From an uncultured Bacilli bacterium (GTDB lineage Bacteria > Bacillota_I > Bacilli_A > RF39 > UBA660), in contig CANQEJ010000007.1 of the NCBI GenBank assembly GCA_947594925.1, forward strand, positions 1-35,058: a stretch of 35,058 bases of DNA, read 5' to 3'. Below are positions 17,629-32,989 of the stretch, in pieces. The position numbers and the translations under genes were made by a program. The notes under the pieces are model-generated. The model worked only from the letters and a program-made list of their open reading frames with translations. It was not told the origin of the DNA and made no database searches. The number at the start of each line of letters is the position of its first letter. Positions within the stretch are counted from its first letter, which is position 1.

Positions 17629-18984
17629 TTGAAAAAGACGTTAAAAAGTTTATTAATTTATATGCTACCTTTAGTTTTAGTATTTACGATTGTGCTTCTT
17701 GCTTTTTGGCCAGGAATTATGTCTCCAGATGCAATGGTACAATGGCATCAAGTACAAACAGGAGTTATTGATAATTGGCATCCTGCTTATGTAACTTTGT
17801 TTATGTCTTTCTTAGCTCGTATCTGGAATAGTCCTACGCTAATTATTATAGTGCAGTATTTAATAATGTCTATAATATTTGCTTATACTTTAACTAGATT
17901 AGAAAAGTATTATAGAATAAAAAGAAAATATTTATTATTAGTAGCTATCTTATTTGCTTTATTTCCTTTAAATTTTAATTTTGCAGTTAATATGCTTAAA
18001 GATACTTTATATGCTTTTTGGTTACTTCTTCTAGGAGCATTTACTTTAGATATTATTAATGATAAAGATTGGTTAAAGAAATGGTATCATGTTTTACTAT
18101 TTATTATTACAGGTCTTTTAGTTTGTCTTTATCGTCATAATGGGATTCTTGTAATGCTTCTATATGCTCTTATTTTTATTATTATCTTTCATAAGAAGAA
18201 AATTGTTTATTTGATAGGAGCTTTTTGGATATGTTCTTATTTAGTATTAACAACTGTTGGCTTTAAGGTATTAAATATTCAAGAAAATAACTATGCTAAT
18301 AAATATGGTCCGGTTACGCATATATTTGCGAAAATGTTAAATGATGATATAAAGTTTTCTTCAAAAGAATTAGCTACTTTAAATAAATTTGCGGATGTGG
18401 ATAGTTTAAAAGAAACTTATAATTTATATAATATGGATTATAGTATTGGTACCCAAAAAATGGATTACTTAAAAAATCATGGAAAAGAATATCTAATTTT
18501 TGCTCTACAAACTTTTAAAAAGCATCCTATGGAAGTAGTTAGTTATTATTTACATACAACATCATATTTTTATAGCCCAATTCCTTTTAAAAATTCTATC
18601 GTAGCGGGATTGTTTAATCAAACAGAGTTATATATTTATGAAGATACTTATCCTAATCTTCAAGAAAGCTCTAAAATACCTTGGTTAAATAATATTTTAA
18701 AAAAGATTACTACTTTATGCCAATTAAGTATATGTAATATTGTTTTAATGCGTCCTTTTATGTATATTTTAACAAGTTTAATTGCTCTAATTTATTTAGT
18801 TAAGAAATATAAACAAAAGCTTTTATTTCTAATAATTGCACCATCTTTATTAAATATTTTGAGTTTAGCTCCTGCTATGCCAGTAGCGTCGGTAAGATAC
18901 ATTTATATTACTATTTTAACTTTCTTTATCGTAGTACCATGGGCTTTGTTTAAATTTTTAGAAGAGTTAAAAGTTAAGCATTAA
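17629..18984 (+). CDS. DUF6020-like polytopic membrane protein
   Basis: This protein of about 451 aa has around ten membrane helices. The first outside loop contains FWPGIMSPDAMVQWHQ and then NWHPAYVTLF, the PG-x2-SPD and WHP pattern of the DUF6020 family, which resembles GT-C glycosyltransferases. The acidic D in SPD is a likely catalytic or ligand residue by analogy. A large extracytoplasmic loop lies near residues 220-320. Start choice: AGGTGA (17618-17623) overlaps the previous stop and best serves TTG 17629. The GTG at 17620 lies inside that site. It overlaps the end of the preceding gene's signal region, so both are one transcript. The biochemical role is unproven. Confidence 0.72.
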   Translation: MKKTLKSLLIYMLPLVLVFTIVLLAFWPGIMSPDAMVQWHQVQTGVIDNWHPAYVTLFMSFLARIWNSPTLIIIVQYLIMSIIFAYTLTRLEKYYRIKRKYLLLVAILFALFPLNFNFAVNMLKDTLYAFWLLLLGAFTLDIINDKDWLKKWYHVLLFIITGLLVCLYRHNGILVMLLYALIFIIIFHKKKIVYLIGAFWICSYLVLTTVGFKVLNIQENNYANKYGPVTHIFAKMLNDDIKFSSKELATLNKFADVDSLKETYNLYNMDYSIGTQKMDYLKNHGKEYLIFALQTFKKHPMEVVSYYLHTTSYFYSPIPFKNSIVAGLFNQTELYIYEDTYPNLQESSKIPWLNNILKKITTLCQLSICNIVLMRPFMYILTSLIALIYLVKKYKQKLLFLIIAPSLLNILSLAPAMPVASVRYIYITILTFFIVVPWALFKFLEELKVKH

Positions 18985-18997
18985 TCAAATATACAAA

Positions 18998-19026
18998 TTG
19001 TTTATATCTTAAAATAATGGTATCAT
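18998..19026 (+). promoter_or_regulatory. extended -10 promoter of the TuaH-like gene
   Basis: TTGTTT (18998-19003) lies 17 bases from TATCAT (19021-19026), which is preceded by TGG, giving an extended -10. The leader would be about 12 bases with AGAGG right at the start. Confidence 0.5.
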
Positions 19027-19044
19027 TATATAGAGGTTTGGTAT

Positions 19045-20337
19045 ATGAAAGATAAAATTACAAAATTAATAAATGTCTTAAAAAAAGATGGCTTTATTGG
19101 TGGTAGTAAAAAAATGGTTAAATACTTTTCTGCCAATTATTTAAGTAAGTTAAATTTTTTAGGAGCCTGGGAAATTAAAAAAAACAAAGATAAATACTTA
19201 AAAGAACTAAAAACTATTTTAAAGGGAAAATACGATAGAGTTATAGTATGGCGTAATAATTTTGGTTGGGATGTGCCTTTATATCAAAGACCTCAACATA
19301 TGGCCGCCGCTTTTGCTTCTTTAAATACATTAGTTTTGTATGAAGTAACAACTTTTACTGATAAAGTAAAAACAATTGTTAAACAAAAAGAAAACTTATA
19401 TTTAGTAAATTTTAATAATAAAGAATATAGTAAATTAATATTTTCTGAATTAGAAAAAATAAATAAACCTAAATATTTAGAAATATATTCTACAGAGTGG
19501 TTAATGAGTGCTAATGATTTAAAAGAATATATTAAAAAAGGATATAAAATTATTTATGAGTATATTGATGAATTAACTGCTGATATTGCGGGGACAAAAG
19601 AAATTCCTCAAAATATTTTAGATAAATTTGAATTTGCTATTAATGATAAGGAAAATGTTTATATTGTAGCAACAGCAGATAAGCTTTATAATGATATTTT
19701 AGAAAAAAGAGGTCAAACTAAATTAATTTTTTCAACTAATGGGGTGGATTACGATTTTTATCAAAATTTTGGTGAATATAAGTTGGAAAAAGAATATTTA
19801 GATATTATTAATAATGGAAAAATTAATATTGGTTATTATGGAGCTTTAGCTAAGTGGTTTGATTATGATTTAGTACGTTTTATAGCTAAGAGTGGCAAAT
19901 ATAATGTAATTTTATTTGGGGTTAAGTACGATGATTCTTTTGATAATTCGCAATTAGCTAGTTGTGAAAATGTTTATTATTTAGGGGTAAAAGAGTATAA
20001 GATTTTAAAATATTATGCTAAAGAAATAGACATATTAACAATACCTTTTTTAATAAATGATATTACAAAATCCACATCACCTTTAAAGTTATTTGAATAT
20101 ATGGCTTTACATAAACCAATTGTAACAACCAAAATGCCTGAGTGCTTAAAGTATAAATCTGTAATAACTGCTAAAAATAAAGAAGAATTTTTAAAAAAAT
20201 TAGAAATGGCTTATGAAAATCGTGATGATAAAAAATATATAAAATTATTAGATAAAGAAGCCAAAGAAAATTCTTGGACGGAAAAATCTAAAGTGTTAAT
20301 TGATTATTTGAAAAGTGAAGAAAGTGAATTATTATGA
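19045..20337 (+). CDS. TuaH-like GT-B glycosyltransferase
   Basis: This 430-aa cytoplasmic transferase resembles teichuronic acid protein TuaH and related enzymes. It shows DRVIVWRNNFGWDVPLYQRPQHMAAAF with QRPQHM at 81-86, the central YEYIDELTADI, the donor-side INIGYYGALAKWFDYDLV and the C-terminal KSTSPLKLFEYMALHKPIV. These features define the TuaH branch, where QRPQH is near the acceptor site and KLFEYMA replaces the usual E-x7-E. ATG 19045 has AGAGG upstream. The stop overlaps the next ATG by 4 bases, so the GtrA-like gene is translationally coupled and probably works with it. Confidence 0.82.
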   Translation: MKDKITKLINVLKKDGFIGGSKKMVKYFSANYLSKLNFLGAWEIKKNKDKYLKELKTILKGKYDRVIVWRNNFGWDVPLYQRPQHMAAAFASLNTLVLYEVTTFTDKVKTIVKQKENLYLVNFNNKEYSKLIFSELEKINKPKYLEIYSTEWLMSANDLKEYIKKGYKIIYEYIDELTADIAGTKEIPQNILDKFEFAINDKENVYIVATADKLYNDILEKRGQTKLIFSTNGVDYDFYQNFGEYKLEKEYLDIINNGKINIGYYGALAKWFDYDLVRFIAKSGKYNVILFGVKYDDSFDNSQLASCENVYYLGVKEYKILKYYAKEIDILTIPFLINDITKSTSPLKLFEYMALHKPIVTTKMPECLKYKSVITAKNKEEFLKKLEMAYENRDDKKYIKLLDKEAKENSWTEKSKVLIDYLKSEESELL

Positions 20338-20897: not shown

Positions 20898-21767
20898 ATG
20901 ATAGAAGAAAAAAATCCTTTTGTACCATTAACATCAGATGGAATATTTAAAGCTCTGTTTAGAAATGAAAGATATTTAAAAGACTTTCTAGAAGATGTCT
21001 TAAAAGAGAAAATAGAAGGTTTAACCTACTTGGATACCTATTTAGAAAAAGAAGATAAGGATACTAAAGAAAGTTTTTTAGATGTCTTAGTAAAATATGC
21101 TGATGGAAATTATGTTATAGTAGAAATGCAAAAATACAAAAAAGGCAGTATGATAACAAGGATGTTTTATTATTTAGGAAAATTAGCTTATAAAACTTTA
21201 AAAGATGGTGAAGATTATAATTCCATAAAGAAATTTATTGGAATTGGTGTATTAGATTATAATGATACAAATTTTGAAAAATTGCATAATATATGTAGAC
21301 TATATGATGTAGATGCAAAAAAAGAAGTAACAGATATGTTAGAAATCCATATGATAAATTTGCAAAGTAAAAAGAAAAATGATAAATTAAAATGGATAAA
21401 ATTATTTAAAGAAGAGAAAGAGTGGAATATGAGTAAGTATAGTGATGAAGAATTGAAAGCTGCTGTAAAGGAATTAAAAAGATTAAGTGGGGATCCAGAA
21501 ATATCAGCAGTAATGGATAAAGAGTTCAAGGAAAAGTTGGATATAAAGCTAATGAAAACAGAGTTTACAGAAGAAGGGCGAGCTGAAGGTCTAGCTGAAG
21601 GTCTAGCTAAAGGTAAAACTGAAGGAAAAAAAGAGAAAGAAAAGGAAGATGCAATAGCTTTTCATAAAAACGGTGCTTCTGATGAGCTTATTTGCAAATC
21701 ATTAAATATTACTCAAGAGAAACTAGAACATATCTTAAAAGAGAACGACGAAAACGAAAGTGAGTAG
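20898..21767 (+). CDS. Rpn family PD-(D/E)XK nuclease (recombination-promoting nuclease / putative transposase)
   Basis: This 289-aa protein belongs to the PD-(D/E)XK-type Rpn/YhgA-like group. It begins PFVPLTSDGIFKALFRNE, as these proteins do, and the nuclease core is visible as FLDVLVKYADGNYVIVEMQKYKK (D and E-x-Q) near 74-97, then RMFYYLGKLAYK. The C-terminus has short AEGL repeats, a charged helix and a small helix-turn-helix-like tail (FHKNGASDELICKSLNIT). Rpn proteins cut DNA and in E. coli are toxic and linked to phage defence. ATG 20898 has a perfect AAGGAGGTG site. An internal TTG at 21537, in frame with AAGGA 4 bases before it, could give a separate 77-aa C-terminal protein. No terminal inverted repeats were seen, so it is not an IS. 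Confidence 0.85.
   Translation: MIEEKNPFVPLTSDGIFKALFRNERYLKDFLEDVLKEKIEGLTYLDTYLEKEDKDTKESFLDVLVKYADGNYVIVEMQKYKKGSMITRMFYYLGKLAYKTLKDGEDYNSIKKFIGIGVLDYNDTNFEKLHNICRLYDVDAKKEVTDMLEIHMINLQSKKKNDKLKWIKLFKEEKEWNMSKYSDEELKAAVKELKRLSGDPEISAVMDKEFKEKLDIKLMKTEFTEEGRAEGLAEGLAKGKTEGKKEKEKEDAIAFHKNGASDELICKSLNITQEKLEHILKENDENESE
21582..21614 (+). repeat. 12-bp in-frame tandem repeat in the rpn gene
   Basis: GCTGAAGGTCTA occurs twice in a row (21582-21593, 21594-21605), followed by a partial third copy GCTAAAGGT. It codes for AEGL repeats and its length keeps the frame, so copy number could change linker length only. Confidence 0.8.
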
Positions 21768-26303: not shown

Positions 26304-26334
26304 TTGCAATTTCCATTACGGGGGGGGGTATACT
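26304..26334 (+). promoter_or_regulatory. promoter with a G9 tract in the spacer, candidate phase-variable promoter
   Basis: TTGCAA (26304-26309) and TATACT (26329-26334) flank a 19-base spacer that contains nine consecutive G (26320-26328) directly before the -10. Nineteen is longer than the 16-18 usual for sigma-A promoters. Loss of one or two G would give 18 or 17. Slippage in such tracts changes promoter strength, as known for porA of Neisseria meningitidis. A G9 run is striking in this A+T-rich DNA. The ATG of the gene is at 26372 with AAGGAGG. Confidence 0.72.
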
Positions 26335-26371
26335 ATTATTGAAGGGTAGTAATGCCTAAGAAGGAGGGAAA

Positions 26372-27139
26372 ATGAAAGAAGCTTTTGATGGAGGAAATCA
26401 AGTAGATAGAAGTGCGGTTGAAGATGATATCATCGATGCTGAATCTATATTAGCTACTTTATTTGATCAAGATTTTACAGAAGTTGCTTCCGGAATAAAA
26501 AAGTTAAATGATACATGGTTGCCAACTTCGCTAGATAGTATTTTAGGAGGAATATATAATTCTTACTATAAGGCTTTAAATTCTTTAGCAAGCGCTTTAG
26601 GTGATAATATCCCAAAACAGGAATTAGCTCTTATTGGAGCAGCCAATTCTTCTAATAATATTGAGGGAACACCACCAATTGATACGAGTATCGTAACTAC
26701 TAATAGAACTTGGGAAAATACTATAGCTATCGATACTAATCCAAATGGAACAGCCGGATTTAGTGACCCAGCATCAGTATTAGAAGCAATTAAATCTCTT
26801 GATTATAATATAGATAGTTTAGGAAATAGGTTAAATCAATTAATTAATGTTTATCAACGAATTTGGTCTGAAAACGCTTTAGTAAGAGCGGAAGCAAATG
26901 CCGCAGCAGAAGCGGTAAGAGCGGCGAGTAGGGAATTTAACAATAATTTTAAAACTGGTCAAGATAATGTGACAATGGCAGCAACGCAATCTATGGAAAG
27001 ATTTACGGATGATGTTGATAAAATTAAATTATACGTAGAAAAGTTTATTGAAGCTTCAAGTGGTATATCACTAGATGTAGTATCAGCGAGTGAATCTGCA
27101 ACAGAGGCAATTAATGAATTCGTAAGTGGCATGTATTAA
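26372..27139 (+). CDS. EAFDG-family protein 1, candidate type VIIb secretion substrate
   Basis: I do not recognise this 255-aa protein from a named family. It begins MKEAFDGGNQVDRSA and ends VSGMY. The next gene encodes a protein of 248 aa beginning MREAFDGNNLDRAA and ending DQGLY, so the two are distant paralogues. Most of the chain is predicted helical, with a Gly/Pro/Thr-rich centre (about 90-130) and a second helical part sharing I-x2-Y-x2-IWS with its paralogue. It has no signal peptide, membrane segment or cysteine. The helical build and position next to essC suggest a T7SS substrate or partner. It is more than twice the length of a WXG100 protein and lacks a clear WXG turn and C-terminal YxxxD/E. 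AAGGAGG sets ATG 26372, and the promoter carries a G9 tract. Confidence 0.7.
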   Translation: MKEAFDGGNQVDRSAVEDDIIDAESILATLFDQDFTEVASGIKKLNDTWLPTSLDSILGGIYNSYYKALNSLASALGDNIPKQELALIGAANSSNNIEGTPPIDTSIVTTNRTWENTIAIDTNPNGTAGFSDPASVLEAIKSLDYNIDSLGNRLNQLINVYQRIWSENALVRAEANAAAEAVRAASREFNNNFKTGQDNVTMAATQSMERFTDDVDKIKLYVEKFIEASSGISLDVVSASESATEAINEFVSGMY

Positions 27140-27210: not shown

Positions 27211-27240
27211 TTGCACAAATAAATAAATTGGGTTTATACT
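27211..27240 (+). promoter_or_regulatory. promoter of the second EAFDG gene
   Basis: TTGCAC (27211-27216) and TATACT (27235-27240) are 18 bases apart. The boxes closely match those of the first EAFDG gene, but the spacer has only GGG instead of nine G. The leader contains a 6-bp hairpin, ATAGCA (27251-27256) with TGCTAT (27262-27267). Confidence 0.6.
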
Positions 27241-27286: not shown

Positions 27287-28033
27287 ATGAGAGAAGCTTT
27301 TGATGGTAATAATCTTGATAGAGCTGCTGCAGCAAATTACTTAAATGCTGCCGATGCAGGCCTTGCAGGAGTAAAATCAGCTTTAACTAATATTTGTGAA
27401 CAAGTTCAATTAATTAATGAAGGTTTCCCTGGAAAAGATGAAAGTGCTGTAATTTGTACAATTTGTAGAACTTTCTGGGAAGCAATGGCCGAAAAGTGGA
27501 GTGGAATATTTTCCCATATTTACAATATTAATATGGAAATGAAAGCTCAAATTATGACAGGAGCAACTACAGGAGATGTGCCAGGATTTAGCATAAATCT
27601 ACAAAATTTCACAAACAATTGGCATCCTGTAACTAGTGAATCTGATGGTATTAAAGATTTCGCTGCAACATCTTCAGCAATTGATACTTTCGTATCTTTA
27701 ATTGCTAATCATACAGCATCTGTTGATGATGTTATTACTCAATACAAAAATATTTGGTCATTAGCATCTGGTTCTAATTATGAACAATTAGCAACAAACG
27801 CTAATCATGCTGCTAATAATTTAAGAAATGGTACTTCAGCACTTGCTTATAATATGAGCCAATGGGGTACTCAATTAGCTCAAGATATTCATGATAGCGA
27901 AATATTAACTGGTCAAGTAAGTCAAGAAGCTCAAGAATTAATTAGTAAAATTACTGATTTATTTGCTTTAGATGATGACGGTATGTTAGCTGATTTCGGT
28001 GTTATTGGCGAAATGGACCAAGGGCTATATTAA
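27287..28033 (+). CDS. EAFDG-family protein 2, candidate type VIIb secretion substrate
   Basis: This 248-aa protein, likewise unnamed, shares the N-terminal M-[K/R]-EAFDG-x-N and DR-x-A signature and the C-terminal G-[M/L]-Y end with the gene at 26372. The sequence is mostly helical and alanine-rich, with KWSGIF near residue 71 giving a possible W-x-G turn. A linker around 95-120 (Gly, Pro, Asn) leads to a second helical part containing ITQYKNIWS. It contains two cysteines (in VICTICRTF) and no signal peptide. It has its own promoter and a strong terminator, so its expression is separate from that of its paralogue and from essC. By position it is a likely T7SS substrate or export partner. That is an inference, since no family match is certain. 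Confidence 0.7.
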   Translation: MREAFDGNNLDRAAAANYLNAADAGLAGVKSALTNICEQVQLINEGFPGKDESAVICTICRTFWEAMAEKWSGIFSHIYNINMEMKAQIMTGATTGDVPGFSINLQNFTNNWHPVTSESDGIKDFAATSSAIDTFVSLIANHTASVDDVITQYKNIWSLASGSNYEQLATNANHAANNLRNGTSALAYNMSQWGTQLAQDIHDSEILTGQVSQEAQELISKITDLFALDDDGMLADFGVIGEMDQGLY

Positions 28034-28053: not shown

Positions 28054-28086
28054 AAACTTGAAGGTGTTAAAACTTTCAAGTTTTTT
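28054..28086 (+). terminator. intrinsic terminator after the second EAFDG gene
   Basis: AAACTTGAA (28054-28062) pairs perfectly with TTCAAGTTT (28075-28083), followed by T to 28086. Confidence 0.75.
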
Positions 28087-28168: not shown

Positions 28169-31100
28169 TTGATAATATACATTATAAATAATTTGTCTTT
28201 AAAAACATTTTTATTGCCAATTCAAGTTAAAGGTAGTTATACAATTACTGATGAAGATAATAATAAAAGAGTAAATAATTTAGTTAATATTGAACAATTA
28301 AATGACTCTTGGCAAATGGTTAGTAATGATGAATATAGTTTAATAGTTAATGGTAGTCAAGTTAATTCTACTATTTTACAAAAAGATACATTTTATTTTT
28401 TAAAAAGCAATTTAACCAATGAAATAGTAACCCTTTTTACTTCTGGAATTTATGATAATGAAACAAAATATGGAGTATATGGTAATCAAGATATTATAGT
28501 AGGTCGAGATGGAAATTGTCATATTGCCTATAATAATTCTTTAATTGCGATGCAACAAGCTAAAATATCTTATGTTAATAATATGTGGACTGTAGAAAAT
28601 TTAGATGCAACTAAACCAATCTATATAAATGGTAATCCTATTTTTCAAAATACTGCTGTCTATCATGGTTCTATATTATTTATTATGGGATTAAAAATTA
28701 TATTTTTAGGAAATACTCTTATTATTAATAATCCGGCGGGAAGTGTTAATGTTGCCTTAGCAGCAGTAGAAACCCAAGGTTATAATTTAAGTGATGAAGT
28801 ATTGCCGGATGATAATCCTAATATGATTTTATATAATAAAAATGATTATTTTTCGCGTGCACCAAGATTTAGAAATACAATTGAAAAAGTTAAAATTGTT
28901 TTAGATAATCCGCCTAGTAAAATTAAAGAAGATACAACTCCTCTTATTCTAACTGTAGGTCCTATGTCTACAATGGGGATGATGGCTTTAGTTTCTATTT
29001 ATTCCGGAGTTAATAATGCTATTACAAATGGCAGAGGTATAACATCAGCGTTACCTTCTATTGTTATGGGTGTTGCGATGCTTTGTAGTATGGTTGTCTG
29101 GCCTTTAGTTACGAAAAAATATAGCAATAAAATGGCTGAAAAAGGGGAATTTAAACGCAGGGATTTATATGAGAAGTATATTCAACAAAAACGCCAAGAA
29201 ATAACCTCAATTATTACTAAACAAAGATTATCTTTATTAGAAGATTATATGTCTTTAGAAGAGTGCGTAACCATTATTAAAAATAATCGTACTAAGTTAT
29301 GGGAACGTAAAATAGAAGAAGATGACTTTTTAAAAGTTCGTTTAGGTCTAGGAGTAGTTCCTTTACAAGTTGATATTCAGTATCCTACAGAAAAATTTAC
29401 CGTTGAAGATGATATCTTAAAAGAAATAATAAGAAACTTTGTAGATGAGGCACGAGATATTTCGGGTGCTCCAGTTACGATTTCTTTTCTAGAAAAAAGA
29501 ATATCTGGTATAGTTGGTAATGATAATTTAACTTCTTCATTTTTATTAGGAATTATCTTACAATTAATTACTTATTATTCTAGTGATATTTTAAAAATTG
29601 TAGTTTTAACTAATGAGCAAAAAGCTTTTAAATGGGAACCTTTAAAAACTTTAGTTCATAACTGGAGTAATGATAATAGTATTAGATTTTTTGGAACAAA
29701 TTCGGATGAAATCAAACAAATTATGTCCTATTTAGATAAAGAATATAGTACGAGAATTGAAGAAAGTGGTAATGCTACAGGCGATGTTTATGTGCATTAT
29801 CCTACTTATTATCTAATCTTAACCGATGATTATAAACAAGTATCGGAATCTAGTTTTATTAAAAAAATCTTAAAAGCTAATATTAATTATGGATTTAGTT
29901 TAATTATAACTAATGAAAAACTATCTAATTTACCAAATGAGTGTGTAAGTTTTATCAATATCAATCAAGAATCTTCTGGTCTTATTGAAAATGAATTAGT
30001 TTCTTCTAAACAAAAAGAGTTTATCGCGGAATTTCCAACGGCGATAAATATGCAAGAGTGTTGTTCTTTACTTGCTAATATTCCTATTAATATTGAGACA
30101 AAATCTAAAGGATTACCTGATAGTTATGAATTTTTGGAAATGTATAATGTCGGTAAAGTGGAACAGTTAAACTCTGTTAACCGTTGGAAAACTAATGACC
30201 CGACTATTTCTTTAGCAACACCAATTGGGATGGATGAAAATGGGGATATTTTTAAGATTGACCTTCATGAGAAATTTCATGGACCACATGGTTTAGTAGC
30301 GGGAACAACTGGTTCTGGTAAGAGTGAGTGGATTATTACCTTTATTTTATCAATGGCTGTAAATTATAGTCCCAATGAAGTTTCATTTGTTTTAATCGAT
30401 TATAAAGGTGGAGGTTTAGCTTTAGCTTTTGAAAATAAAGATATTGGTATTAAACTTCCGCATATTGCCGGAACTATTACTAACTTGGATACTGGAGAAC
30501 TTAATCGTTCTTTAATATCTATTCAATCTGAACTTAAAAGACGTCAAAGAGAATTTAATAAAGCGCGTGAAATATCAGGAGAAAGTACAATTGATATTTA
30601 TAAGTACCAAAGACTTTACCGAGCTGGAGTAGTTAAAAATCCTATTTCCCATTTATTTATAATAAGTGATGAATTTGCTGAGTTAAAATCTCAACAACCA
30701 GAATTTATGGACCAACTAGTTAGTACTGCTCGTATTGGGCGTAGTTTAGGAGTTCACCTAATTTTAGCGACCCAAAAACCATCTGGTGTTGTAAATGACC
30801 AAATTTGGAGTAATAGTAGATTTAAAGTATGTTTAAAAGTTCAAGATAAAGCCGATTCTGTCGATATGATTAGAACGGATGAAGCCGCTAGTATTAAACA
30901 ACCAGGACGTTTCTATCTTTTAGTAGGTTATAATGACTATTTTGCTTTAGGTCAATCTGCTTATAGTAGTATGCCTTATATCCCTTCTGAAACAGCGAAA
31001 AGAAAAATAGATACTTCGATACAATTTGTTAATAATACTGGCTATATAATTAAACAAGTGGATGATGTTAAGATTATTGAAAATGCCGCAAGTCAAGGAG

Positions 31101-32722
31101 AAGTATTACTAAATGTTGTAAAATATTTAACAACCGTTGCTACTCAAGAAAATATTAGAGTAAATCAATTATGGTTAGATAATATACCAAGTATTATTTA
31201 TTTAAGTGAATTATTGCAAAAATATAGTTATCAAAAAGAAGCTTATGTAATTAATCCAATCATCGGTGAATATGATAATCCTGCTAATCAAAGTCAACAT
31301 TTATTAACTTTACCTTTAACTAACAATGGTAATGCTATTATATTTGGGATGACTGGGTCAGGTAAAGAAGATTTATTAGTAAGCTTAGTTTATTTCTTGA
31401 TAACTACTTATACAACAGAAGAATTAAATTTATATTTATTAGATTGTGGTTCGGAAACTTTAAAAATCTTTGATCAAGCTCCTCAAGTAGGTGATGTCAT
31501 TGTTTCTAGTGAAGTTGAAAAAGTAGCTAATTTATTTAGGATGTTATTTGATATATTAGATGAGAGGAAAAAAGCTTTCTCTTCCTTTGGAGGAAGTATT
31601 AATGTATATAACAAATATAATGAAAAGAAATATCATAATGTAGTAGTTATTATTAATAATTTTGAGAATTTCTTAGAGTTATTTAGTCCTTTAGAAGAGG
31701 TATTTATCAAATTAACTAGAGAGGCTACTAAATATGGTATATTGTTTATTATTACAGCTGCTGCTTCTAACTCTGTAAGGTTAAAAATTCGTCAAAATTT
31801 CACGCAAAATATTGCCCTACAATTAACTGACCAATTTGATTATATTAATATTTTAGGAAATACGAATAAGATGGTTCCTTCAAGTATTAAAGGACGTGGT
31901 CTAGTTAAGATTGATAATGTTTATGAATTTCAATCAGCTAGTATTTGTCCTGAAGAAAATTTGATGGACTTTATAAAAAGTACAATTACGGATTTAGAAC
32001 AAAAGAATTTAACTAAAGCGAAAAGAGTACCAATTTTACCAGAAGTGGTTAATGTTGAGTATTTAAAAACAAATAGTATTACTTTAGATAATCTTCCTTT
32101 AGGAGTTTATAAAAATGATTTAAAAATTGCCTCTTATAATTTTAAAGATGCTTATATGAGTATTATTACAACAACTAATGTTATGAATTTAAAACATTTT
32201 GTTAATGGTTTTAGTAAATTGCTTGCTTTAATTCCTAATCTAGATGTTAAAATATTTGATTATGTTAAAGTAACAGCTAATGGGGCTTATGTTAGTGAAA
32301 CAGAGGATGCCTTTGGTAATATTATCAATGCTTTAACCTTTGGAACGGCAGGACAATTACTAATGATTATCGGCATTAATGAATTACTTTCTACATTAAG
32401 TTCAGAAGAGAAGAAAGAATTTGACCGTGCAATTTTAACTGCTAGAAATAATCATAATACTAATATAGTTATCATTGAATCATTTGATAATTTGAAAAAA
32501 TATCAATTTGATGAGTGGTATAAAAATATTAATAGTAAAAATGGTATTTGGATAGGTAATAATATTATTGACCAAAGTGTCTTAAAAGTTGGTAAGATTA
32601 CAAAGAATTTATATGATAATATAGGTAATGATTTTGGTTATATTGTTACAGATGGTATTCCAGTATTGTTTAAAGTAGTTACAGAAAATGAAGAAAATGC
32701 TGTAGAGGAATTAGAATTTTAG
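28169..32722 (+). CDS. essC: EssC, FtsK/SpoIIIE-type ATPase of the type VIIb secretion system
   Basis: This 1517-aa protein has the usual EssC length and layout. Two FHA-like N-terminal domains (about 1-95 and 96-195; IIVGRDGNCHIAYN is typical) precede two membrane helices (about 255-315), then a linker and three FtsK-like modules. Module 1 is intact: Walker A AGTTGSGKSEW (about 711-721), KGGGLA and Walker B LFIISDEFAEL (about 829). Module 2 has GMTGSGKED (about 1062), with E in place of S/T, and IINNFE in place of an acidic Walker B. Module 3 has lost its P-loop (TTTNVMNLKHF). It drives export of T7SS substrates at the membrane. The start is TTG 28169, with GTTGGTG upstream, since neither nearby GTG is in frame. 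EsaB follows after 9 bases, so they form an operon. Confidence 0.93.
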   Translation: MIIYIINNLSLKTFLLPIQVKGSYTITDEDNNKRVNNLVNIEQLNDSWQMVSNDEYSLIVNGSQVNSTILQKDTFYFLKSNLTNEIVTLFTSGIYDNETKYGVYGNQDIIVGRDGNCHIAYNNSLIAMQQAKISYVNNMWTVENLDATKPIYINGNPIFQNTAVYHGSILFIMGLKIIFLGNTLIINNPAGSVNVALAAVETQGYNLSDEVLPDDNPNMILYNKNDYFSRAPRFRNTIEKVKIVLDNPPSKIKEDTTPLILTVGPMSTMGMMALVSIYSGVNNAITNGRGITSALPSIVMGVAMLCSMVVWPLVTKKYSNKMAEKGEFKRRDLYEKYIQQKRQEITSIITKQRLSLLEDYMSLEECVTIIKNNRTKLWERKIEEDDFLKVRLGLGVVPLQVDIQYPTEKFTVEDDILKEIIRNFVDEARDISGAPVTISFLEKRISGIVGNDNLTSSFLLGIILQLITYYSSDILKIVVLTNEQKAFKWEPLKTLVHNWSNDNSIRFFGTNSDEIKQIMSYLDKEYSTRIEESGNATGDVYVHYPTYYLILTDDYKQVSESSFIKKILKANINYGFSLIITNEKLSNLPNECVSFININQESSGLIENELVSSKQKEFIAEFPTAINMQECCSLLANIPINIETKSKGLPDSYEFLEMYNVGKVEQLNSVNRWKTNDPTISLATPIGMDENGDIFKIDLHEKFHGPHGLVAGTTGSGKSEWIITFILSMAVNYSPNEVSFVLIDYKGGGLALAFENKDIGIKLPHIAGTITNLDTGELNRSLISIQSELKRRQREFNKAREISGESTIDIYKYQRLYRAGVVKNPISHLFIISDEFAELKSQQPEFMDQLVSTARIGRSLGVHLILATQKPSGVVNDQIWSNSRFKVCLKVQDKADSVDMIRTDEAASIKQPGRFYLLVGYNDYFALGQSAYSSMPYIPSETAKRKIDTSIQFVNNTGYIIKQVDDVKIIENAASQGEVLLNVVKYLTTVATQENIRVNQLWLDNIPSIIYLSELLQKYSYQKEAYVINPIIGEYDNPANQSQHLLTLPLTNNGNAIIFGMTGSGKEDLLVSLVYFLITTYTTEELNLYLLDCGSETLKIFDQAPQVGDVIVSSEVEKVANLFRMLFDILDERKKAFSSFGGSINVYNKYNEKKYHNVVVIINNFENFLELFSPLEEVFIKLTREATKYGILFIITAAASNSVRLKIRQNFTQNIALQLTDQFDYINILGNTNKMVPSSIKGRGLVKIDNVYEFQSASICPEENLMDFIKSTITDLEQKNLTKAKRVPILPEVVNVEYLKTNSITLDNLPLGVYKNDLKIASYNFKDAYMSIITTTNVMNLKHFVNGFSKLLALIPNLDVKIFDYVKVTANGAYVSETEDAFGNIINALTFGTAGQLLMIIGINELLSTLSSEEKKEFDRAILTARNNHNTNIVIIESFDNLKKYQFDEWYKNINSKNGIWIGNNIIDQSVLKVGKITKNLYDNIGNDFGYIVTDGIPVLFKVVTENEENAVEELEF

Positions 32723-32731
32723 GTGATATAG

Positions 32732-32989
32732 ATGAATAATAATAAAATATTAGTTACCGTATTTGTTCCAATGTTGGAAACAGAGTATGATGTATTTATT
32801 CCTATTAATAAAAAAATTCGTAATGTTACAAGGCTACTAAATGAAGCAGTAGTAGATTTATCAAATGGTTGTTTTCCTTTAAAAGATGATATTATGCTTT
32901 ATAATCGTAATGATGGAACAATATTAGAGCCGTTAAAAAATGTTAAAGATGCCGGTTTAGTTAATGGTTCTCAAGTAATATTAATTTAA
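32732..32989 (+). CDS. esaB: EsaB/YukD-like ubiquitin-fold protein of the type VIIb secretion system
   Basis: This 85-aa protein has the ubiquitin-like fold pattern of YukD/EsaB: a first strand KILVTVFVPM, a helix with VTRLLNEAVVDLS, and the end DAGLVNGSQVILI that matches the family's final strand. EsaB is a small cytoplasmic component or regulator of T7SSb. It starts 9 bases after essC with AGGTGATATAG upstream, and its terminator follows at once. Other T7SSb parts (EsaA, EssA, EssB) are absent on either side, so essC and esaB are the only core components seen. Confidence 0.85.
   Translation: MNNNKILVTVFVPMLETEYDVFIPINKKIRNVTRLLNEAVVDLSNGCFPLKDDIMLYNRNDGTILEPLKNVKDAGLVNGSQVILI

Follow-up and report, generated by a model that had tools for sequence, protein, structure and literature searches.

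A poly-G promoter spacer at a type VII secretion locus of an uncultured gut Bacilli bacterium, and a wider class of candidate phase-variable promoters

Switches that depend on a poly-G tract in a promoter spacer are textbook cases, known from a few pathogens and usually serving one or a few genes in each. In Neisseria meningitidis, the tract of porA lies between the -35 and -10 boxes, and changes of a single G alter both the spacing and transcription (PMC3899988, PMC7864442). Treponema pallidum has poly-G tracts in the promoters of several genes for surface proteins (tp0126, tprL and tprE/G/J), of which that of tp0126 is situated between the boxes and gives best activity with 17 bp, while that of tprL is found with 7-11 G in vivo (PMC7864442). 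In the Vlp system of Mycoplasma hyorhinis (poly-A) and the Vmm system of M. mycoides, each member of a surface multigene family has its own promoter homopolymer or repeat, the Vmm repeat being in the spacer (PMC10502178). Type VII (ESX-1) output of Mycobacterium tuberculosis is altered by indels in the espA promoter and in a 7G tract of espR (PMC11898584), and in Bifidobacterium breve slippage in G tracts switches pili, surface structures of a gut commensal (PMC9187656).

The promoter considered here, in a 35,058-nt stretch of DNA (the window) from an uncultured Bacilli bacterium, resembles each of these in part. It shares with porA a poly-G tract in the spacer, but porA is one locus in a Gram-negative pathogen, whereas about 45 loci are concerned here, in a small gut Bacilli genome, and genes linked to a type VII secretion system (T7SS) are among them. 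The Treponema genes are alike in having poly-G in the promoters of several surface-protein genes, with the tp0126 tract between the boxes as here; they are fewer, belong to another phylum and include no T7SS targets. A multigene surface family in which each member has its own promoter repeat recalls Vlp and Vmm, although those systems use poly-A or a dinucleotide repeat before lipoprotein genes, and the present one poly-G before proteins with SipW-like or pilin-like leaders. As with espR and espA, indels in a G homopolymer may bear on type VII output, but the espR tract is in the 5'UTR and acts post-transcriptionally on a regulator, unlike a promoter spacer directly in front of T7SS-locus genes. 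B. breve offers G-tract slippage, a gut commensal and surface structures, but its tracts are in coding sequence, spacer tracts being only mentioned in that work (PMC9187656). New features are the scale, in a genome that is small, the T7SS targets, and the occurrence in a lineage of uncultured gut bacteria; the kind of device is already known. A literature search found no paper joining RF39 with phase variation and, among the papers listed, none on poly-G promoters of such genomes.

The best reading is phase variation through spacer length, by strand slippage as at porA and tp0126, on a genome-wide scale. We are fairly confident that the G9 tract at the T7SS locus is a slipped-strand contingency element, one of a set of about 45 promoters in its genome and of a poly-G spacer class present across the family, and very probably gain and loss of G in this class turn the genes behind it, for the surface and for secretion, on and off. 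The tract would change length by slipped-strand mispairing, which would change the length of the spacer and so the output of the promoter. Behind most members of the class would lie genes for secreted or surface proteins, and behind some of them type VII secretion genes. A population would consist of cells differing in their sets of surface proteins and T7SS partners, around an EssC machine that is probably unchanged. We infer slippage at the T7SS tract itself, the effect on transcription, the direction and reversibility of that effect, and secretion of the 255-aa product.

The promoter at the T7SS locus and the gene behind it

The initial annotation described a TTGCAA and a TATACT box 19 bp apart with nine G between them, and a downstream promoter with nearly the same boxes, an 18-bp spacer and only GGG; direct reading of the sequence bears out both (Table 1). 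The tract is the only run of at least seven G in the whole window. A run as long appeared in 3 of 100 dinucleotide shuffles, and taken alone the tract is only moderately improbable, and suggestive only. A consensus promoter scan around the T7SS locus found promoters not to be in excess.

Table 1. Features of the poly-G promoter and its neighbourhood (positions in the window)
Feature	Position	Strand	Basis or remark
-35 box TTGCAA	26304-26309	+	Read in sequence; also in family-2 promoters and in G163 and G189 (same family), with 19-bp geometry
Promoter spacer, 19 bp (tttccattac plus nine G)	26310-26328	+	Sequence; modal length among 189 poly-G promoters
G9 homopolymer flush with -10 box, proposed slippage site	26320-26328	+	One of the genome's 49 tract instances
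-10 box TATACT	26329-26334	+	Sequence
Shine-Dalgarno AAGGAGG	26361-26367	+	Sequence; ATG 26372 at normal distance
255-aa all-helical protein, proposed switch target, candidate T7SS substrate or partner	26372-27139	+	Position and predicted shape
Promoter of 248-aa gene: TTGCAC 27211-27216, 18-bp spacer, GGG 27230-27232, TATACT 27235-27240	27211-27240	+	Sequence; no long tract
248-aa remote paralogue of 255-aa protein	27287-28033	+	Sequence comparison
Predicted intrinsic terminator between 248-aa gene and EssC	28054-28083	+	Consensus scan only
EssC, type VIIb secretion ATPase	28169-32722	+	TIGR03928, 954 bits (cut-off 778); FtsK/SpoIIIE and FHA domains
YukD/EsaB-like 85-aa protein	32732-32989	+	PF08817 matched only weakly (E 0.08, short of the cut-off); adjoins EssC

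The identity of EssC is certain. The gene behind the G9 promoter had been called a candidate type VIIb substrate: EssC does lie nearby, but the product is an all-helical protein without a family match (Pfam and NCBIfam, including PF06013 for WXG100 and PF04740 for LXG). Its structure model consists of two helical hairpins (pLDDT 71), with which a PDB structure search found nothing at E <= 0.001. That it is a T7SS substrate or partner is accordingly a guess, based on position and shape. The adjacent 248-aa protein, whose promoter had been described as paralogous, is indeed related, if remotely (19% over 166 aa, E 8e-4), and the two begin alike with M-(K/R)-EAFDG. A search of the genome contigs with the 255-aa protein revealed no relatives; a congeneric species (G008; L101) has a remote homologue on its T7SS contig, the only orthologue found, and this gene is without a tract. 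Given the predicted terminator, a switch at the G9 promoter would act on the 255-aa gene and perhaps on the 248-aa one as well, but probably not on EssC. A transposase-like gene of the Rpn/PD-(D/E)XK family (PF12784) is located near the T7SS locus, at 20898-21767 of the window.

Poly-G promoters across the genome and the family

When the genome containing the window (1.04 Mb, 58 contigs) was searched for G7, the 115 overlapping matches resolved into 49 tract instances, all of which were read. In 46 of them the tract occupies a -35/-10 spacer, or the downstream half of a promoter is alone visible, which argues that the position of the T7SS tract is not due to chance. Family-1 promoters, TTTACAACAAACC-Gn-TATAATGGACTTAGATGTAAAGATAGGAAGG, account for 41 instances (38 distinct loci), and family-2 promoters, TTGCAAATTACACTAC-G9-TATAAT, for two; the latter have the geometry of the T7SS promoter (TTGCAA, 10 nt ending in AC, G9, -10 box). 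There is one instance each of the T7SS promoter itself, the promoter of an Esx-like pair, and a downstream half only. The Esx-like pair, genes for 102-aa and 120-aa proteins on contig C22 that are unlinked to the T7SS locus, is preceded by TTTACA-aatgtcc-G8-TACTAT. The three tracts outside promoters comprise one within a reading frame and two at Shine-Dalgarno positions. These last, a G7 and a G9 (C3:40830, L007; C49:2995, L061), are found before genes that by eye are radical-SAM-like and CoA-activase-like, and translation may possibly be tuned there by the length of the tract.

Wherever the contig includes the gene, the family-1 and family-2 promoters drive paralogous proteins, of 510-580 aa where complete, that have a hydrophobic leader like MKERKRKITIITVIGIMLILAITTFTYAIWSRT and end with PVINLNSDVTVTGSGT..DPYVVQ. 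No match was found for them in Pfam and NCBIfam. From the leader we infer that they are secreted or anchored surface proteins; an earlier reading of this main paralogue family as lipoproteins was dropped, the leaders being SipW- or pilin-like and the libraries giving no match. About 38 such loci occur on contigs C1-C53 of this genome (G000; L003-L065), for example L181:562-2139, L182:611-2320 and L184:3724-5475, with near-identical poly-G promoter and leader, and many of the contig breaks fall within these repeats. One paralogue on C13 (C13:23670; L183:17701-19480) has a G10 in its coding sequence, the frame being broken as assembled (open reading frames 17701-18195 and 18110-19480), a seeming equivalent, at the level of translation, of the switch in promoters. 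By eye, a MutL-like mismatch repair protein is encoded at L183:2353-4092, so phase variation here need not depend on loss of mismatch repair.

Beyond this genome, the GTDB family (291 genomes) was searched for at least seven G abutting TATA(A/C)T, which occur 366 times (summed) in 55 genomes; the reversed pattern gave two matches. A stricter pattern, TTGACA-(spacer with G7)-TATAAT, occurs in 40 of the 291, representing 31 genera, and its reverse in none; the version with C7 was absent from all of 282 genomes. At the level of the class, 23 of 395 genomes, from several other families, have the same pattern (control, 0). Numbers of poly-G/-10 matches in G189 (76), G163 (34) and G091 (29) about equal or exceed those in the genome of the window, and the promoters sampled from G189 and G163 have TTGCAA as the -35 box, as in the T7SS promoter. 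An Illumina dark-cycle artefact was rejected as the source of the tracts, since many assemblies have them within contigs and between unique flanks. The initial idea of a slippage-prone poly-G spacer is thus strongly supported at its core, and these genome-wide and clade-wide sets make it far more general than a single locus.

In most genera the tract abuts the -10 box, in others it adjoins the -35 box (e.g. TTGACA-C-G9-TTGTTA-TATAAT), a variability of place that fits an effect on spacing better than a fixed motif. Genes sampled downstream of such promoters elsewhere in the family encode pseudopilins (GFTLVELLAVI), proteins with SipW-like leaders, and lipoproteins; among other genera, L072, L073, L078, L091 and L095 have poly-G promoters before pseudopilin-like genes (KKGFTLVELLAVIVILAVI). 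We lean towards the view that all this constitutes a combinatorial switch of the whole lineage, in which dozens of poly-G spacer promoters per genome, with the tract placed independently and at a point of the spacer that varies by genus, would control paralogous surface proteins, pseudopilins, lipoproteins, T7SS genes and, for some species, an entire T7SSb operon.

Tract length, promoter state and alternative explanations

Tract lengths in the sampled promoters range from 7 to 16. Among 28 family-1 promoters, the 38 nt 3' of the tract differ at only 0.0047 substitutions per site, and the tracts are G7 (three), G8 (11) or G9 (14); in 16 of 24 groups of promoters from the same genome with identical spacer flanks, the number of G is the sole difference. 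Alternatively, promoter strength might be set by the G tract as a fixed element, whether a site to which something binds or one of DNA shape (a regulator site, a G-quadruplex or an A-form spacer), and changes in its length would bring no useful switching. Such an element would suit the invariable presence of G, and never C, on the non-template strand in the searches run, the prevalence of one length in one genome (G9 in 12 of the 13 promoters listed for G006), and the equal lengths (G10/G10) in the one pair of close orthologues examined. That this pair, whose products are 77% identical, retains a tract in both species nevertheless speaks for the switch. A fixed element is at odds with the range of lengths, with the differences among identically flanked copies, with the shifting place of the tract within the spacer between genera, and with the frame-breaking G10 in the coding sequence of a member of the same protein family, and we regard it as unlikely.

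The state of the assembly also bears on variation. Contig ends overlap by exactly 77 nt, the signature of a de Bruijn graph with k = 77. Thirteen contigs end exactly after G8 (12) or G9 (one), and in eight a stretch of exactly 69 nt separates the contig start from a tract (69 + 8 = 77), three pairs overlapping by exactly 77 nt; the 69-nt flanks of the forked tracts are otherwise all different, and so specific to their loci. A fork after G8 means that, past this point, some reads of the locus have T (eight G) and others a further G (nine or more), which suggests that about 18 family-1 loci carry mixed tract lengths, though stutter in PCR or sequencing could also produce a fork. Stutter is usually a minor class of k-mers, of the kind that assemblers discard. 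Assemblers also merge simple bubbles where the sequence is unique, so the uninterrupted passage of contig C7 through the T7SS-promoter tract at G9 has no bearing on mixed lengths there. If the tracts were real, but their differences in length and the forks were products of PCR or sequencing slippage, of which in vitro examples on G tracts are documented (PMC9187656), the location of 46 of the 49 tracts in promoter spacers and the zero counts in both controls would be left without a cause, and a minor class of reads would have had to survive assembly at some 18 loci; this seems very unlikely. It can scarcely be credited that chance alone brought tract and boxes together at 26304-26334, outside the poly-G class, and that the gene has another start, even with a -35 box that matches the consensus at 4/6 positions only, an overlapping 18-bp alternative at 26310-26339 (TTTCCA/TATTAT) and a tract length reached in 3% of shuffles, because that alternative keeps the tract inside its spacer, the two family-2 promoters of the same genome have the same geometry, and T7SS promoters of other species also contain a tract.

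If length variation of the slipped-strand kind is accepted, which state is active? Loss of one or two G from the T7SS promoter would give spacers of 18 or 17 bp, as had been pointed out, but in the clade 19 bp is the commonest state of such promoters. In the 189 poly-G promoters listed, the spacer is of 19 bp in 67 and of 18-20 bp in 132, and their spacers centre on 17-20 bp. The ordinary TTGACA/TATAAT pairs of the window's genome peak at 17 bp (19 of 25 at 16-18), so poly-G promoters are about 2 bp longer. From this comparison the T7SS promoter at G9, like most copies, is probably weak or OFF as assembled, and G7 (17 bp) would be its strongest state; a poly-G helix could possibly shift the optimum for the spacer. 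Counted from TTTACA, the spacers of family 1 are short rather than long (13-16 bp), and would likewise fit a mostly OFF state, a reading that depends on the -35 box chosen.

Should the promoters work as proposed, cells of one strain would differ in their surfaces and in their T7SS partners, and interaction with the host and competition with other bacteria would in these species be traits of a mixed population. Poly-G promoters would also explain why such genomes assemble poorly, and they provide a simple sequence signature that can be checked in existing reads.

T7SS genes as recurrent targets

To switch a T7SS gene had been thought an unusual use of a poly-G promoter, a description weakened by the finding of T7SS genes as targets in other species. 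In L105, whose EssC is 52% identical, an Esx-like pair directly 5' of the EssC gene is preceded by TTGACA-aaatc-G9-tga-TATGAT (17 bp), the leading genes of this pair and of the C22 pair being homologous. The hairpin model of the Esx-like pair has CFP10-ESAT6 as its best PDB match, though not a significant one (E 0.63), and no Pfam family reaches the cut-off. L129 has an operon of a YukD-like gene, two WXG100 genes (47.8 and 45.9 bits; cut-off 27.3), a gene for a large helical protein and, last, EssC, transcribed from a candidate promoter with a 17-bp spacer (L129:1958; TTGACC-c-G9-tatgtga-TATTAT). The related operon of L124 (L124:1803) has an interrupted tract, ggggagggggg (GGGGAGGGGGG), and an 18-bp spacer, as if the tract of a common promoter had been stabilised in one of the two species.

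Of the 79 loci at which the surroundings of EssC were examined, most have no tract close to it, so that the link between T7SS and tract is recurrent and not general: T7SS genes are a repeated but optional target of poly-G promoters. Extensive use of such promoters is not universal either, since GGGGGGG-N(0-8)-TATAAT is absent from the genomes of L105, L124 and L129. Shorter runs, G6 and G4, are present in T7SS-locus spacers of L106, both of 17 bp. At L106:2179-12882 there is a tandem of two EssC genes; behind each lies a gene for an 84-aa YukD-like protein, and the two proteins have their first 50 residues in common.
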